Shown here piece by piece: positions 679 through 6,706 of a stretch of DNA of 64,000 nucleotides. The DNA comes from Verrucomicrobiia bacterium (GTDB lineage: Bacteria > Verrucomicrobiota > Verrucomicrobiia > Limisphaerales > UBA8199): NCBI GenBank assembly GCA_035946615.1, contig DASYZB010000012.1:1-64000 (forward strand). Direction: 5' to 3'. The notes below the pieces were generated by a model. That model searched no databases. It was not told where the DNA came from and saw only the letters and a list, made by a program, of their open reading frames with translations. The position numbers and the translations under genes were made by a program. The number at the start of each line of letters is the position of its first letter. The stretch's first letter is position 1.

Positions 679-1851
679 ATGAAAGCGTGCCCTCAGAAAT
701 CAACTGCATGGTTGCGGTCCGACACGACAATCAAAGCTTTGCTCTTTGCAGCGAGCCTGGTTACAGCAACTTCCTCCTCCCACGCCGCAGAGGCGGTTCC
801 GACACCTGGGGCTGTGGTCAGCAACCTTGTCCTGACTGCGGCGCAGCGACAAAAAATCCACACGGAAACAATCAAATCGTCCACCTTCCGCCGGACGATC
901 GAAACGAGCGGCACGGTCAGCTTTGACGCCGACCAGGCAACTACTGTTTTGGCTCCGGTCTCGGGTCCGGCGTTGCGGCTTGTGGCCTCGCTAGGGGCGA
1001 AAGTTCAGGCCGGGGATGTGCTGGCGACGGTCGCCTCGCCGGACTACGCCACAGCTGTCAGCGCTTATCGTAAGGCGGTGACAACGGCGAAAAATGCCCG
1101 CCGCATTGCTGACCTGGCCGAACAACTTTCGCACAACAATCTTTCCCGAAAGGAGGTCGAGCAGGCCCAGACGGACGCGGCCAATGCCGAAGCCGACCGT
1201 CAGGCCGCGCTGGCACAGCTTCGCGCTCTTGGGGTGGAGACCGCGACCATCCAGGCCATCCAGGAGAACCGGTCACTGCCGGATGGGCTGGGGATTATCC
1301 GCTCACCGCTGGCAGGAACGGTCGTCGAGAAACTGATCACGCCCGGCCAACTCTTGCAAGCCGGCACAACCCCGTGTTTCACCGTCGCGGACCTGTCCCA
1401 GGTTTGGGTCATGGCGAACATTTTCGAATCTGATATTGCCTCCATCGCGGAAGGTGACCGGGCCGAAGTGCTCTGCAGCGCCTCGGCGACCAACCTTCCG
1501 GGCACAGTGGATTACATCTCGGCCATTATCGACCCGAGCACACGCGCCATTGGGGTGCGGGTCATTGCAAATAATCCTAACGACGTTCTTAAAAAGCAGA
1601 TGTATGTGCGCGTCTTAATCCATTCGAGTCGAGACCAAACGGGCTTGTTGGCGCCGGTCTCGGCGGTGTTGCGCGATGACGAGGACCTGCCGTTCGTCTA
1701 TCTGGCCAATCCCGACGGCAGTTTCTCGCGGCGGCGTATTACTCTGGGCAGCCGCGTCGGCGACCAGTATGAAGCGACGGGCGGCCTCAAGGCAGGCGAC
1801 CAGGTTGTTATCGAGGGCGGCTTGTTTCTGCAATTCCTGCAAAGCCAGTGA
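679..1851 (+). CDS. RND efflux periplasmic adaptor (CusB/HlyD family)
   Basis: This 390-residue membrane-fusion protein should link an inner-membrane RND pump to an outer-membrane channel. The N-terminus has a charged start and a hydrophobic stretch ending near the Ala-rich SSSHAAEA, consistent with a signal peptide. Around residues 90-118 there is a lipoyl-like half-domain (LAPVSG to QAGDVLATV). A helical hairpin follows (about 125-185), then the second lipoyl half (IIRSPLAGTVVEKLITPGQ), the barrel region (VWVMANIFESDI) and a membrane-proximal domain near GLKAGDQVVIEGG. Length and order match CusB/CzcB-type adaptors. Its stop overlaps the GTG start of the pump gene (GTGA), so translation is probably coupled. 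The substrate is inferred from the pump. Confidence 0.93.
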   Translation: MKACPQKSTAWLRSDTTIKALLFAASLVTATSSSHAAEAVPTPGAVVSNLVLTAAQRQKIHTETIKSSTFRRTIETSGTVSFDADQATTVLAPVSGPALRLVASLGAKVQAGDVLATVASPDYATAVSAYRKAVTTAKNARRIADLAEQLSHNNLSRKEVEQAQTDAANAEADRQAALAQLRALGVETATIQAIQENRSLPDGLGIIRSPLAGTVVEKLITPGQLLQAGTTPCFTVADLSQVWVMANIFESDIASIAEGDRAEVLCSASATNLPGTVDYISAIIDPSTRAIGVRVIANNPNDVLKKQMYVRVLIHSSRDQTGLLAPVSAVLRDDEDLPFVYLANPDGSFSRRRITLGSRVGDQYEATGGLKAGDQVVIEGGLFLQFLQSQ

Positions 1852-4800
1852 GCGCCTCTGAATTTCCATTGCCGGAAGGACAGCGGCGTTCAAGTTCGAT
1901 TATCAATCGGGTTGTCGCTTCGTCGCTGCGGCAACGTTTCCTGGTGGTCCTGGCGACGCTCCTGCTCATCCTGACCGGAACCTGGTCGCTCAATCGGCTG
2001 CCGGTCGAGGCCTACCCGGACCTTTCGCCGCCCATGGTCGAGATCATCACCCAATGGCCGGGGCGCGCCGCCGAGGAAGTCGAACGGCTAATTACCGTGC
2101 CAATCGAAGTCGAAATGAACGGCACCCCGAACATGACTGTCCTTCGCTCGATCTCACTCTATGGTCTGTCCGACGTTATCCTGACTTTTCGCAACGGCAC
2201 GGATAACTACTTCGCGCGCCAGCAGGTCTTCGAACGCATCCCGGACCTGACGCTGCCTGCGGGTGTAACGCCCTCGGTAGCGCCGCTGTTTTCGCCTTCA
2301 GGCTTGATTTATCGTTACGTGCTTCAGAGTCCTGACCGATCGCCTCTCGAGTTGAAGACCATTGAAGATTGGATAGTCGAGCGCCAATACAAATCGGTCT
2401 CCGGGGTGGCGGACGATTCGGGCCTTGGCGGCGAGACGATGCAGTATCAGGTGCTCCTGGACCCGGTGAAGGTCGCCGGCGCCGGGCTGTCTGTATCGCA
2501 AATCGTCACTGCCCTTGGCGCCAACAATGACAACGCCGGCGGCGGGTTCTATTCGGAGGGGGGACAGTTCTATTACGTGCGCGGCTTGGGCCGGTTGCAC
2601 ACGCCGGAGGACATCGGCAAGGTCGTCCTGGCGGTCCATAATGGAATTCCTGTTCTGGTAAAAGACGTGGGCCAGGTCGTGATCGGCCACGCGCCGCGCC
2701 TGGGCCAGTTTGGATACCAGGACCAGGACGACGCCGTGGAAGGGGTCATTCTGATGCGCACCGGCGAGAAGACCCAGGAGGTGCTCGAGCGCGTTGAGGC
2801 CAAAACCCGGGACCTCAATCAGAACGTCCTGCCCAAGGACGTCAAAATTCACACCTTTTACAACCGAAGCGACCTGATTTCGCTGACGACCGAGACGGTC
2901 GAGCGCAATCTCCTGCGGGGCATGGTCCTGGTTGTCATCGTGCTGGTCTTCTTTCTTTATGATTTTCGCGCCGGCTTGATTGTCGCGACCACCATCCCGC
3001 TGGCATTGTTATTCGCCTTCATCTGCCTCGATTTGCGCAACGTCTCGGCCAACCTCCTCTCCATCGGCGCAGTCGATTTCGGCATCCTGGTGGACGGGGC
3101 GGTCGTGATGGTGGAGAACATCTTCCGCCAGCTCGCCGCGCGCCAAGGCCAGACCTTCACGATTATGGAGGTCATCGCCGATGCCGCGGCTGAGGTGGAC
3201 CGCCCGATCTTCTACGCCGTGGCGGTGATTGCCGCAGGCTTCCTGCCGATTTACGTTTTGTCCGGACCCTCAGGCAAACTCTTTACGCCGATGGCCGACA
3301 CGATGATCTTCGCGCTGATCGGCTCGCTCATCGTCACGCTGACCCTGCTGCCGGTGGTCTGTTCCTGGGCCTTCCGCAAAGGCGTTCGTGAGCGGCGCAA
3401 CGCCGCCTTCGAGGCGGTCCGGTCGGCTTACACCAAGGGCCTCGATTTCTGCCTCGCACATCCCTGGGGAGTCACACTGGCGTCGGCGCTGGTGCTGGCC
3501 GGCTCGCTGTTGCTGCTGCCCGCCATTGGCGCCGAGTTCATGCCGCATCTGGACGAAGGCGCGCTCTGGATTCGCGCCACCATGCCCTACACCATCTCCT
3601 TCGAGGAATCACGCAAGATAGCGCCCCAGGTCCGCCAAATCCTGCGCTCGTACCCTGAAGTTACCGTGGTCGCCTCAGAGCATGGCCGCCCCGATGACGG
3701 CACCGACCCAACCGGCTTTTTCAACGTGGAGTTCTTCGTCGGCCTCAAGCCCTATCGTGAATGGAAAGGAAAGTATCGCACGAAAGCAGAATTAATTGAA
3801 GCCATCAACGACAAGCTCATCGCCTTTCCCGGCATCATCTTTAATTACACCCAGCCGGCTGAAGACGCGGTCGATGAGGCTGAGACCGGCCTGAAGAGCG
3901 CGTTGGCGGTGAAAGTATTCGGCACGGACCTCAATACGCTCGAGAGCAAAGGCAAGGCCATCAAACATGTGTTGGAAGGGGTTCGCGGGATCAAGGAGAT
4001 CACCCTGGTCCAGGAACTCGGCCAGCCCAGCCTCACGGTGAACACGGATCGCGCCAGGATCGCCCGCTATGGGCTCAACGTGGCGGACATCAACGGGCTG
4101 ATCGAGGCGGCCATTGGCGGTTCCGCCGCTACCCAAGTGGTGCAAGGCGAAAAGCAATTCGACCTGGTCGTGCGGCTGGAGCCGCAATTCCGCAGTAACC
4201 TCGACGAGATCGGCAACATCCTGGTCTCGACGCCAGACGGCTCGCAAATCCCATTGAAGGAATTTGCCGATATCCGCGTGCAGAACGGCGCTTCCTTCAT
4301 CTACCGCGAGGACAACTCGCGCTATATCGGTGTGCAATTCTCCGTCGAAGGACGCGACCTGGCGGGCGCGGTGGACGATGCCCGGCGCCAGGTCCAGGCC
4401 CAAGTCCCGCTGCCGCAGGGTTACCGGTTGGACTGGGGCGGCGAGTACAAAGATTACACCGCCTCGAGGCGCCAGCTCAACGTGGTGCTGCCCCTGACCT
4501 TGTTTGTGATCTTCCTGCTGCTGTTCGCGCTCTACCGCAACTTTAAGTTCCCGCTCATCACAGTTTTGGGGGTGTTGCTGTCGGCGCCGGTGGGCGGCAT
4601 CGTGGCGCTGTGGTTGACGCATACGCCCTTCTCGGTTTCCTCTGGAATTGGGTTTCTGGCCCTGTTCGGCGTCTCAGTCCAAACGGCTGTGGTCTATATC
4701 TCTTACGTGAACGAACTGCGCGGCAGCGGCATGGAATTCCGTCGAGCGATTCGCGATGGAGCGATCCTGCGGCTGCGGCCAATCATGATGACGGCGCTGG

Positions 4801-4976
4801 TAGCCGCTTTAGGGCTTCTTCCGGCAGCCATTGCCACCGGGGTCGGCACCGATTCCCAGAGGCCGTTCGCGCTGGTCATTGTTAGCGGCCTCTTTACGCG
4901 GCTTCTGATCAGTATTTTTCTGATGCCCGCTCTGTATGTCATCGTCGCCCGACCGTTGGACCGGCTGGAGGTATGA
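1848..4976 (+). CDS. heavy-metal RND efflux pump, CusA/CzcA family
   Basis: This 1042-residue inner-membrane proton antiporter has the usual two-repeat RND architecture: a TM helix at about 27-47, a large periplasmic loop, TM helices around 360-530, a second periplasmic loop, and the last TM block from about 880. The heavy-metal RND signature in TM4, DFGILVDGAVVMVEN, lies at residues 410-424 with acidic residues D410, D416 and E423. This separates it from drug-type AcrB pumps. Start is GTG at 1848 overlapping the adaptor stop, and the end overlaps the next start (ATGA). The ion (Cu/Ag, or Zn/Co/Cd) cannot be read from sequence alone. The TM11-region motif GVSVQTAVVYISYV differs from the classic CzcA and CusA forms as I know them, so this may be a separate subgroup. 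Confidence 0.95.
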   Translation: MSASEFPLPEGQRRSSSIINRVVASSLRQRFLVVLATLLLILTGTWSLNRLPVEAYPDLSPPMVEIITQWPGRAAEEVERLITVPIEVEMNGTPNMTVLRSISLYGLSDVILTFRNGTDNYFARQQVFERIPDLTLPAGVTPSVAPLFSPSGLIYRYVLQSPDRSPLELKTIEDWIVERQYKSVSGVADDSGLGGETMQYQVLLDPVKVAGAGLSVSQIVTALGANNDNAGGGFYSEGGQFYYVRGLGRLHTPEDIGKVVLAVHNGIPVLVKDVGQVVIGHAPRLGQFGYQDQDDAVEGVILMRTGEKTQEVLERVEAKTRDLNQNVLPKDVKIHTFYNRSDLISLTTETVERNLLRGMVLVVIVLVFFLYDFRAGLIVATTIPLALLFAFICLDLRNVSANLLSIGAVDFGILVDGAVVMVENIFRQLAARQGQTFTIMEVIADAAAEVDRPIFYAVAVIAAGFLPIYVLSGPSGKLFTPMADTMIFALIGSLIVTLTLLPVVCSWAFRKGVRERRNAAFEAVRSAYTKGLDFCLAHPWGVTLASALVLAGSLLLLPAIGAEFMPHLDEGALWIRATMPYTISFEESRKIAPQVRQILRSYPEVTVVASEHGRPDDGTDPTGFFNVEFFVGLKPYREWKGKYRTKAELIEAINDKLIAFPGIIFNYTQPAEDAVDEAETGLKSALAVKVFGTDLNTLESKGKAIKHVLEGVRGIKEITLVQELGQPSLTVNTDRARIARYGLNVADINGLIEAAIGGSAATQVVQGEKQFDLVVRLEPQFRSNLDEIGNILVSTPDGSQIPLKEFADIRVQNGASFIYREDNSRYIGVQFSVEGRDLAGAVDDARRQVQAQVPLPQGYRLDWGGEYKDYTASRRQLNVVLPLTLFVIFLLLFALYRNFKFPLITVLGVLLSAPVGGIVALWLTHTPFSVSSGIGFLALFGVSVQTAVVYISYVNELRGSGMEFRRAIRDGAILRLRPIMMTALVAALGLLPAAIATGVGTDSQRPFALVIVSGLFTRLLISIFLMPALYVIVARPLDRLEV

Positions 4977-6706
4977 GCCAAACTTTAACAACAGGAACTG
5001 AATCGATGTGCTTTAACCCTCTTGGGAGCGCCCCAGGCCCGGGCCTGTCATTACGCTCTTCTTGCATGCTGCCTTGGCCAGAGGCCAAGGGCCTCCCCTA
5101 TACCAGCCCCGGGCAACGCCCTGGGAAAGGCAAACCAGACTCCGGTTTGCAGGCCAACGGCCTGCCTCATAGGGAGAGCCATAAGGCCGGCCATTGTCCT
5201 GCAACCACTCACGCCTCGGCCTGCTCCCAGGGAGTGTCACCCGGGAAAATTTCTGCATGGGTCCCGCTTCTAGTCTTATTCCTGGCCGGCTGTGCGGTCG
5301 GCCCCAATTTCAAAAGGCCGGCGGCTCCCCAAGTCAGCGGTTACGCCCCGGGTCCGCTTGGCTCGACCACCGGCACGACCAATATGCCTGGCGGAGCACC
5401 GCAACACTTCCTGAGCGGCAGTGATATTCCCGCAGAATGGTGGAGATTGTTTCATTCCAAACCGCTCGATGAGTTGATTGAACTCTCGCTCAGCAACAAC
5501 CCCACCATCAAAGCGGCCCAAGCTGCTCTCACCATGGCGAAAGAAACTGTCCTGGCTCAGCGAGGCGCCTACTGGCCCAGCATCACGGGAAGCTTCTCGG
5601 CGGCCCGCCAGAAGACCTCCCAATTGATTTCACCGACACCCAACTCAGGGGCGCTGTACTTTAGCTTATATACTCCTCAAGTCAGCGTCTCCTACGTGCC
5701 GGATGTCTTTGGCCTGAACCGCCGGACGATGGAATCCCTGAAGGCCCAAGAAGGGCAGGCGCGCTTTGCGCTCATGGCGACCCATATCACCCTGAGCGCG
5801 AACGTAGCGGCTGCCGCCATTCAGGAAGCCGCCTTGCGCGGACAAATCGACGCCACCCGCCAACTGGTGGACATCAACTCGAACATGCTCCAAAAACTTC
5901 AGGACCAGTACGCTAAAGGTTACGCGGCCCGGCTGGACGTTGTCGCTCAAGAGGCGCAACTGGCCCAGGTCGCGGCCACCCTGCCGCCTTTGCTCAAGCT
6001 ATTGGCCCAGCAACGCGATCTCCTCTCCGCTCTTGCTGGCCGGTTCCCCAGCCAAAGCCCTGCCGCGCGCTTCGAGCTTGCCGACCTGCATCTGCCACAG
6101 GACTTGCCTCTGAGCCTTCCCTCGCAACTGGTCACCCAACGCCCGGACGTGCGCCAGGCCGAGGAAAGCCTTCACGCCGCCAGCGCCGAGGTTGGGATTG
6201 CCATCGCTAATCGCCTGCCCAATATCACCCTCTCGGCCGATGCCGGCACCATGGCCTTGGAGGCGGGTCAGATTTTTTCAAGTCCGGAAGGTTTCTGGAC
6301 TTTGGCGGGAGGTTTGACCCAGCCCATTTTCCAAGGCGGGGCTTTGCTGCACAAACAAAGGGCCGCCAAGGCAGCCTATACACAGGCCGCCGAGCAATAC
6401 CGGGCGACGGTCCTGACCGCCTTTCAGAATGTGGCCGACACATTGCACGCGCTCCTGCAGGATGCCAACAGCCTGCGCGCAGCGGCCGCCTCGCGAGATG
6501 CTGCCAAGGCCAGCTTGGATTTGGCTCGGAATCAATTTGAGGCCGGCTACTCCGGCTATCTCCCCTTTTTAACGGCGGAACAGGCCTATCAACAAGCCTC
6601 CATCCTCCTGGTGCAGGCCCAGGCCAGCCGCTACGCCGACACCGCGGCTCTCTTTCAAGCCCTCGGCGGCGGTTGGTGGAACCGCGCGGACCTCAGCAAA
6701 AACTAA
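4973..6706 (+). CDS. outer-membrane efflux lipoprotein (TolC/NodT family) with repeat-derived N-terminus
   Basis: The outer-membrane channel of the RND system. The recognisable protein begins with a lipoprotein signal, VPLLVLFLAGC, followed by AVGPNFKRP, the hallmark start of NodT/CusC-type factors. Two OEP repeats follow, the second around SLPSQLVTQRPDVRQAEESL. In the annotated 577-residue frame the lipobox Cys sits about 105 residues in. The first roughly 85 codons are low-complexity translation of a hairpin-repeat array (5034-5236), not a normal leader. The ATG at 4973 overlaps the pump stop (ATGA). A GTG at 5234 would give a conventional lipoprotein signal peptide and may be the working start, perhaps reached by reinitiation. 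Either the repeat invaded the gene 5' end in frame, or the true start has shifted downstream. Confidence 0.88.
   Translation: MSQTLTTGTESMCFNPLGSAPGPGLSLRSSCMLPWPEAKGLPYTSPGQRPGKGKPDSGLQANGLPHRESHKAGHCPATTHASACSQGVSPGKISAWVPLLVLFLAGCAVGPNFKRPAAPQVSGYAPGPLGSTTGTTNMPGGAPQHFLSGSDIPAEWWRLFHSKPLDELIELSLSNNPTIKAAQAALTMAKETVLAQRGAYWPSITGSFSAARQKTSQLISPTPNSGALYFSLYTPQVSVSYVPDVFGLNRRTMESLKAQEGQARFALMATHITLSANVAAAAIQEAALRGQIDATRQLVDINSNMLQKLQDQYAKGYAARLDVVAQEAQLAQVAATLPPLLKLLAQQRDLLSALAGRFPSQSPAARFELADLHLPQDLPLSLPSQLVTQRPDVRQAEESLHAASAEVGIAIANRLPNITLSADAGTMALEAGQIFSSPEGFWTLAGGLTQPIFQGGALLHKQRAAKAAYTQAAEQYRATVLTAFQNVADTLHALLQDANSLRAAAASRDAAKASLDLARNQFEAGYSGYLPFLTAEQAYQQASILLVQAQASRYADTAALFQALGGGWWNRADLSKN
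5034..5236. repeat. array of short GC-rich hairpins inside the reading frame
   Basis: Consecutive inverted repeats: palindrome CAGGCCCGGGCCTG (5034-5047); CCTTGGCC/GGCCAAGG with loop AGA (5072-5090); an imperfect CCCGGGC/GCCC-T-GGG stem with loop AAC (about 5107-5125); CAAACC/GGTTTG (5131-5149); GCAGGCC/GGCCTGC with loop AAC (5149-5165); and CTCCC/GGGAG (5224-5234). Three stems share 3-base loops, two of them AAC. The region stays open in the frame of the outer-membrane factor. Confidence 0.8.

Follow-up and report, generated by a model that had tools for sequence, protein, structure and literature searches.

A probable non-autonomous derivative of an IS200/IS605-type transposon in the leader of an efflux channel gene of Verrucomicrobiota

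Several described systems of palindromic repeats are close to the element which we discuss here. The PATEs of Haloquadratum have no transposase. They derive from parents which have lost their core and their near-terminal palindromes are common to IS605-type transposons; they persist where intact transposases are scarce (PMC3119063). The TIR repeats and TIRtrons (TIRYT) of Di Nocera et al. are long inverted repeats, some of them self-complementary, which flank a Y1 transposase. Members of the TIR family are also interspersed, either single or dimeric, with a reported motif GGGGWSAS (PMC3733652). The Rickettsia palindromic elements (RPE) and the intragenic REPs of Opitutus terrae are palindromic repeats found in frame inside coding genes, often at the N-terminal end (PMC3733652). 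Finally, the IS200/IS605 insertion sequences have a Y1 HUH transposase and hairpin ends (PMC8266576).

The window which we have analysed is a stretch of 64,000 nt from a Verrucomicrobiia bacterium (contig DASYZB010000012.1, positions 1 to 64,000). It has an operon of three RND efflux genes: a HlyD-type adaptor (679–1851), the pump and the outer-membrane channel (Table 1). The reading frame of the channel is uninterrupted from 4886 to 6706. Its ATG at 4973, which overlaps the pump stop, is likely to be the ancestral start; in 11 of the 13 channel homologs with the same overlap an RND pump was confirmed to be adjoining. The lipobox Cys is preceded by 106 residues when counted from ATG 4973, and by 19 from GTG 5234. 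Channel homologs with 47–70% identity mostly have about 16–28 residues before the Cys, and the long leader of the window channel is found in none of the homologs compared. This difference in length indicates an insertion, deduced from homologs whose identity to the channel is no more than about 70%; its exact ends are not fixed. The leader is 78–90 residues above the usual length. The recognisable element supplies about 55 of them and region 4977–5080 contributes about 20–30 residues beyond what the element explains. We found no significant second copy of 4970–5085 in the genome, including the palindrome at 5034–5047. The first-pass annotation had proposed that an interspersed repeat entered the gene. 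This is borne out by the many other copies in the genome and by homologs which lack a leader of about 100 residues: once aligned with the channel they show short leaders, and there is no trace of the conserved 100-residue leader that would have spoken against an insertion.

Table 1. Features of the channel gene and of the element within the window
Feature	Position	Strand	Evidence or remark
RND efflux pump gene (AcrB/CusA type)	1848..4976	+	PF00873 E=4.1e-260; immediately 5' of channel gene
Outer-membrane channel (OMF) ORF, element included	4973..6706	+	PF02321 E=1.1e-41
ATGA overlap, channel start / pump stop	4973..4976	+	4-nt overlap also in 13 homologs
In-frame alternative ATG	5006..5008	+	AGGA (4993-4996) 9 nt upstream
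Palindrome CAGGCCCGGGCCTG, perfect, outside repeat family	5034..5047		Inverted-repeat search
Left half-unit H1-H2-H3, near-canonical	5081..5175	+	Covariance model R1, 98.2 bits, E=1.5e-20
Stem-loop H1 GAGGCC-AAG-GGCCTC	5081..5095		Copy alignment
Stem-loop H2 CCCCGGGC-AAC-GCCCTGGG, one mismatch	5107..5125		Copy alignment
Stem-loop H3 GCAGGCC-AAC-GGCCTGC	5149..5165		Copy alignment; perfect-hairpin count
Right half-unit, inverted, decayed	5176..5267	-	R1 19.2 bits, E=0.013; nhmmer 5180-5235 E=2.8e-6; inverted repeat
GTG, candidate downstream start	5234..5236	+	In frame, within decayed H2'
Lipobox LAGC of channel protein	5282..5293	+	Cys codon 5291; aligns with homologs' lipobox

The element itself covers positions 5081–5245. 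It is formed by two inverted half-units of about 95 nt with three stem-loops each (H1-H2-H3 / H3'-H2'-H1'). In the right half-unit H3' is found at about 5181–5204 and H2' at about 5226–5245, while H1' is unrecognisable. The consensus of the aligned copies starts with H1 GAGGCC-AAA-GGCCTC, followed by CYTYATACCAG and H2 CCCAGGGC-AAC-GCCCTGGG; then come a variable 22-nt spacer, H3 GCAGGCC-AAC-GGCCTGC and CYTYATAG. A BLAST search of the hairpin region against its own genome gives 25 matches at E ≤ 1, itself included, of which about 20 are clearly significant; the best other copy has 85% identity across 157 nt. Covariance model R1 detects 25 half-units in this genome, in about 20 sites which are mostly intergenic, so that the search for the hairpin set suggested by the first reading does yield further copies. 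In 293 kb of unrelated genomes the model gives one weak match. Inverted pairs are present at six sites: contigs C73, C111, C115, C10, C9 and the window. With a size of about 165–190 nt, the element is too short to encode a transposase. In contig C71 (L013:1874-1968) the ribosome-binding region of a glycosyltransferase gene of bshA-like type is occupied by a half-unit, which stops a few bases short of the ATG.

Most stem cells in the family are paired (95.8%), and cells with a double change number 11, as compared with 4.3 in shuffles. The stem covariation score is 0.122 versus 0.057 in shuffled alignments (0/500 reach it), and 0.043 or less in slid controls. Swaps of the compensatory type, from G-C to C-G, are found in H1 of 6/16 copies and in H2 of 4/16: changes in the stems are partly compensatory. 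Inverted repeats do occur in region 5034–5236 and two of them have AAC loops, as had been annotated, but only two of them are perfect and the others are imperfect. Perfect hairpins (stem ≥ 6, loop 3–6) in 5034–5246 are two, versus 0.36 expected from dinucleotide shuffles. The RNA folding energy of 5006–5300 is unexceptional (z −1.27; 22/200 shuffles are equally stable), so the hairpins by themselves are weak evidence; we judge them real because of the repeat family and of the paired changes in its stems. An Rfam scan of 4700–5600 gave no match. The encoded residues had been considered of low complexity, but the stretch is repeat-derived and does not have this character.

Related genomes point to the origin of the element. 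Half-unit matches are found in all 13 genomes of the family which were searched, its own included, with most of them in G006–G010 and G012. The order half-unit, tnpA, inverted half-unit occurs in three places (G008:C183, G008:C896 and G009:C240), and further Y1 genes have half-units nearby (G008:C583, G003:C173, G007:C118). The flanked transposase belongs to PF01797 (Y1_Tnp) and is above the cut-off of the NCBIfam IS200/IS605 model NF033573. The HUH (DHVH) and YxxxQ (YIDRQ) motifs are present in the transposases of L236 and L238. A PDB sequence search with the transposase gave nothing at E ≤ 0.01. The two copies of the transposon in G008 are near-identical and lie on separate contigs (C183 and C896, loci L236 and L237), which indicates recent movement. 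Their common sequence spans TTCATACCAG to CTGGTATGA and the outer hairpin H1 differs; H1 may be a target palindrome, outside the mobile unit. The L237 tnpA has a one-base deletion relative to L236. In the window genome there is a fossil on contig C29 (L021:2221-2340), where H1-H2 is joined to the last 21 tnpA codons: H2 is fused to EEYRDLLKKYHIAFDEQYVWD*, which has 74% identity with the tnpA C-terminus. This assembly, which is 96% complete, did not yield any intact cognate transposase, and present mobility in this genome is therefore unproven.

The half-units which flank tnpA in the relatives and the C29 fossil identify the element as an IS200/IS605-type derivative without transposase. The dimer corresponds to both transposon ends minus the core, with the same half-unit arrangement found around tnpA. 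As in a MITE, its terminal inverted repeats are shared with an element which carries a transposase. We found no empty site, and target-site duplications are not expected of IS200/IS605 elements. We conclude that a non-autonomous palindromic derivative of an IS200/IS605-type transposon has very probably been inserted in the channel leader. In contig C46 a related Y1 transposase, which is intact and has 40% identity, is enclosed by palindromes of a different family (GCGTCGC-GTA-GCGACGC, CCGTGGGCC...; L024:1330-1386, 1905-1990). One palindrome of this family also abuts the C10 half-unit (L017).

The present structure could have arisen as follows. In the intact transposon tnpA lies between two triple-hairpin half-units which are inverted relative to each other, and the loss of tnpA would bring the halves together. 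A copy of the resulting element would have been inserted between the start which overlaps the pump stop and the lipoprotein signal, and its right half would have decayed since. The frame would have stayed open because the palindromes of the element contain few stop codons. The ribosome most likely starts at ancestral ATG 4973 or at ATG 5006 and would read across the element; signal peptidase II, by cutting before the Cys (5291), would then discard the extra residues. Mobilisation in trans, the start codon used and the removal of the leader are steps which we infer. It would be unusual for an export signal to lie about 100 residues into the protein.

Such read-through is plausible from the sequence: the frame is open, and the element may be translated as part of a working channel protein. 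The proposal that the repeat is in frame and tolerated can be maintained in part: the frame which begins at the conserved overlapping start is open and there is a parallel case in C73, but openness is at baseline. Open frames through elements are not enriched, 16/61 in gene-like cases versus 199/612 in the baseline (102 clusters); given this frequency, tolerance is inferred. The in-frame copies of the window contig (C12) and C73 differ 8/6/12 times at the three codon positions. Constraint at the protein level is undetectable between these two copies (pS 0.28 and pN 0.125 in the OMF frame), with too few differences to separate the frames, and we rejected this comparison as evidence.

The parallel case is a prepilin-like gene on contig C73 (L009:2816-4117). 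It has a conserved GTG start 130 codons away from FSLIELMI, and the spacer in between contains an in-frame dimer of the element plus other sequence (RASVLDCGSPLPLL). The conserved start reads VKTN in C73, VKANH in L333 and VRSNT in L334; in the relatives it is found about 20–23 aa before FSLIE. Judging from their leaders, both the C73 and the channel protein would lose the extra residues on cleavage. Cleaved export leaders, of lipoproteins and prepilins, might then be places where palindromic transposon derivatives with few stop codons can land safely. The derivatives would be translated in frame from a conserved start at an operon junction and discarded as a peptide by the signal peptidase. 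This idea is speculative and we think it unlikely to hold; C12 and C73 support it so far, with L286 and L281 as weaker candidates in relatives. If true, insertions would survive in leaders which elsewhere in the gene would be lethal. A repetitive leader (RISDFGFRPSFGLRPSAFGF) is present as well in L330, the homolog closest to the C73 prepilin, which suggests that repeats often enter the prepilin leaders of this family. In the relative G009 (L286:844-1100) a protein which looks secreted has a hydrophobic, export-like stretch, and an element gives in-frame ATGs about 30–43 codons ahead of it.

Other explanations should be weighed against the insertion of a translated transposon derivative. The channel may be translated from GTG 5234, in the decayed H2', as had also been proposed. 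The element would then be a spacer which uncouples channel from pump and supplies the start and an n-region (MSPGK). The signal would have a textbook length for a lipoprotein: its 19 residues, inside the range of the homologs, include a lysine and a hydrophobic core. It has also been argued that, where REPs fall at a predicted N-terminus, most of them are extragenic, the true start being downstream (PMC3733652). Against this, GGGA directly adjoins the GTG, so there is no properly spaced Shine-Dalgarno sequence. ATG 5006 is preceded by AGGA at a spacing of 9 nt, and the overlap of start and stop in ATGA is a conserved architecture. Besides, C73 has neither ATG nor GTG downstream of the element; TTG codons alone are available, inside the element or ahead of it. 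A start at GTG 5234 is a serious contender, although we consider it somewhat less probable than an upstream one. The array might instead be a selected RNA regulatory element which sets the channel:pump ratio, since it lies at the junction of both genes, can form RNA hairpins and maintains pairing in the stems of the family. However its folding energy is inside the shuffle range, the genes beside the various copies are unrelated, and many copies lie where two neighbours converge or diverge, the right half is decaying in the window, and homologous operons do without the array. The pairing of the stems is accounted for by the transposase, which recognises single-stranded hairpins. We regard such a regulatory function, which the first reading had also suggested and which has no specific support from the folding, as very unlikely.

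Small palindromes, inverted pairs and the association with Y1-type transposases recall a REP/BIME of the GTAG type, moved by a RAYT (TnpAREP), and on contig C4 a half-unit lies upstream of a RAYT-like remnant. Nevertheless there is no GTAG at the foot of the stems, the conserved flanks being CYTYATA. The unit has 95 nt and three stems, versus 20–50 nt in REPs, and the flanked transposases match the IS200/IS605 model, not NF047646. A REP/BIME origin fails on these defining features and is very unlikely. We rejected the RAYT link by way of C4, whose remnant, the only RAYT-like neighbour of a half-unit, is broken; intact partners elsewhere are of the IS200 type. Finally, the leader could be just long and GC-rich, with no insertion at all. 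Its length does vary, as shown by the C117 paralog, 72% identical, with a leader of about 45 residues. This explanation has practically no chance: 5076–5233 has significant DNA matches elsewhere in the genome, which refute it, and all homologs lack a comparable leader.

The transposon derivative belongs to an uncharacterised repeat family of Verrucomicrobiota, derived from IS200/IS605 and now tied to its parent transposase; a search of open-licence PMC papers gave no account of it. Recurring N-termini coded by repeats (e.g. YTSPGQRPG) can be explained as transposon hairpins, either translated or mis-called, and start codons annotated downstream of such elements should be distrusted. If read-through is true, we have a simple case of mobile DNA which is harmless inside a working gene.

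In comparison with known systems, the window element resembles PATEs: it also lacks a transposase, its palindromes are the ends of an IS605-type transposon and the core has been deleted. However PATEs have an archaeal host and are described without terminal inverted repeats (PMC3119063), whereas here the host is bacterial and the ends are inverted copies of a triple hairpin. Since its two halves are inverted copies, it is PATE-like rather than a strict PATE. It shares with TIRYT the inverted repeats around a Y1 transposase and the interspersed singles and dimers. RPE-4 and RPE-6 have a CGTC tag and no associated transposase; our element has no such tag and its parent is of the IS200/IS605 type. 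The O. terrae repeats are GTAG REPs, and GTAG is absent here. IS200/IS605 insertion sequences differ in that the copy in the window is devoid of a transposase gene; its parent has several hairpins at each end, in inverted orientation. The landing place is unusual but probably harmless, and the kind of element is already known from PATEs (PMC3119063), TIR repeats and N-terminal in-frame REPs and RPEs (PMC3733652).
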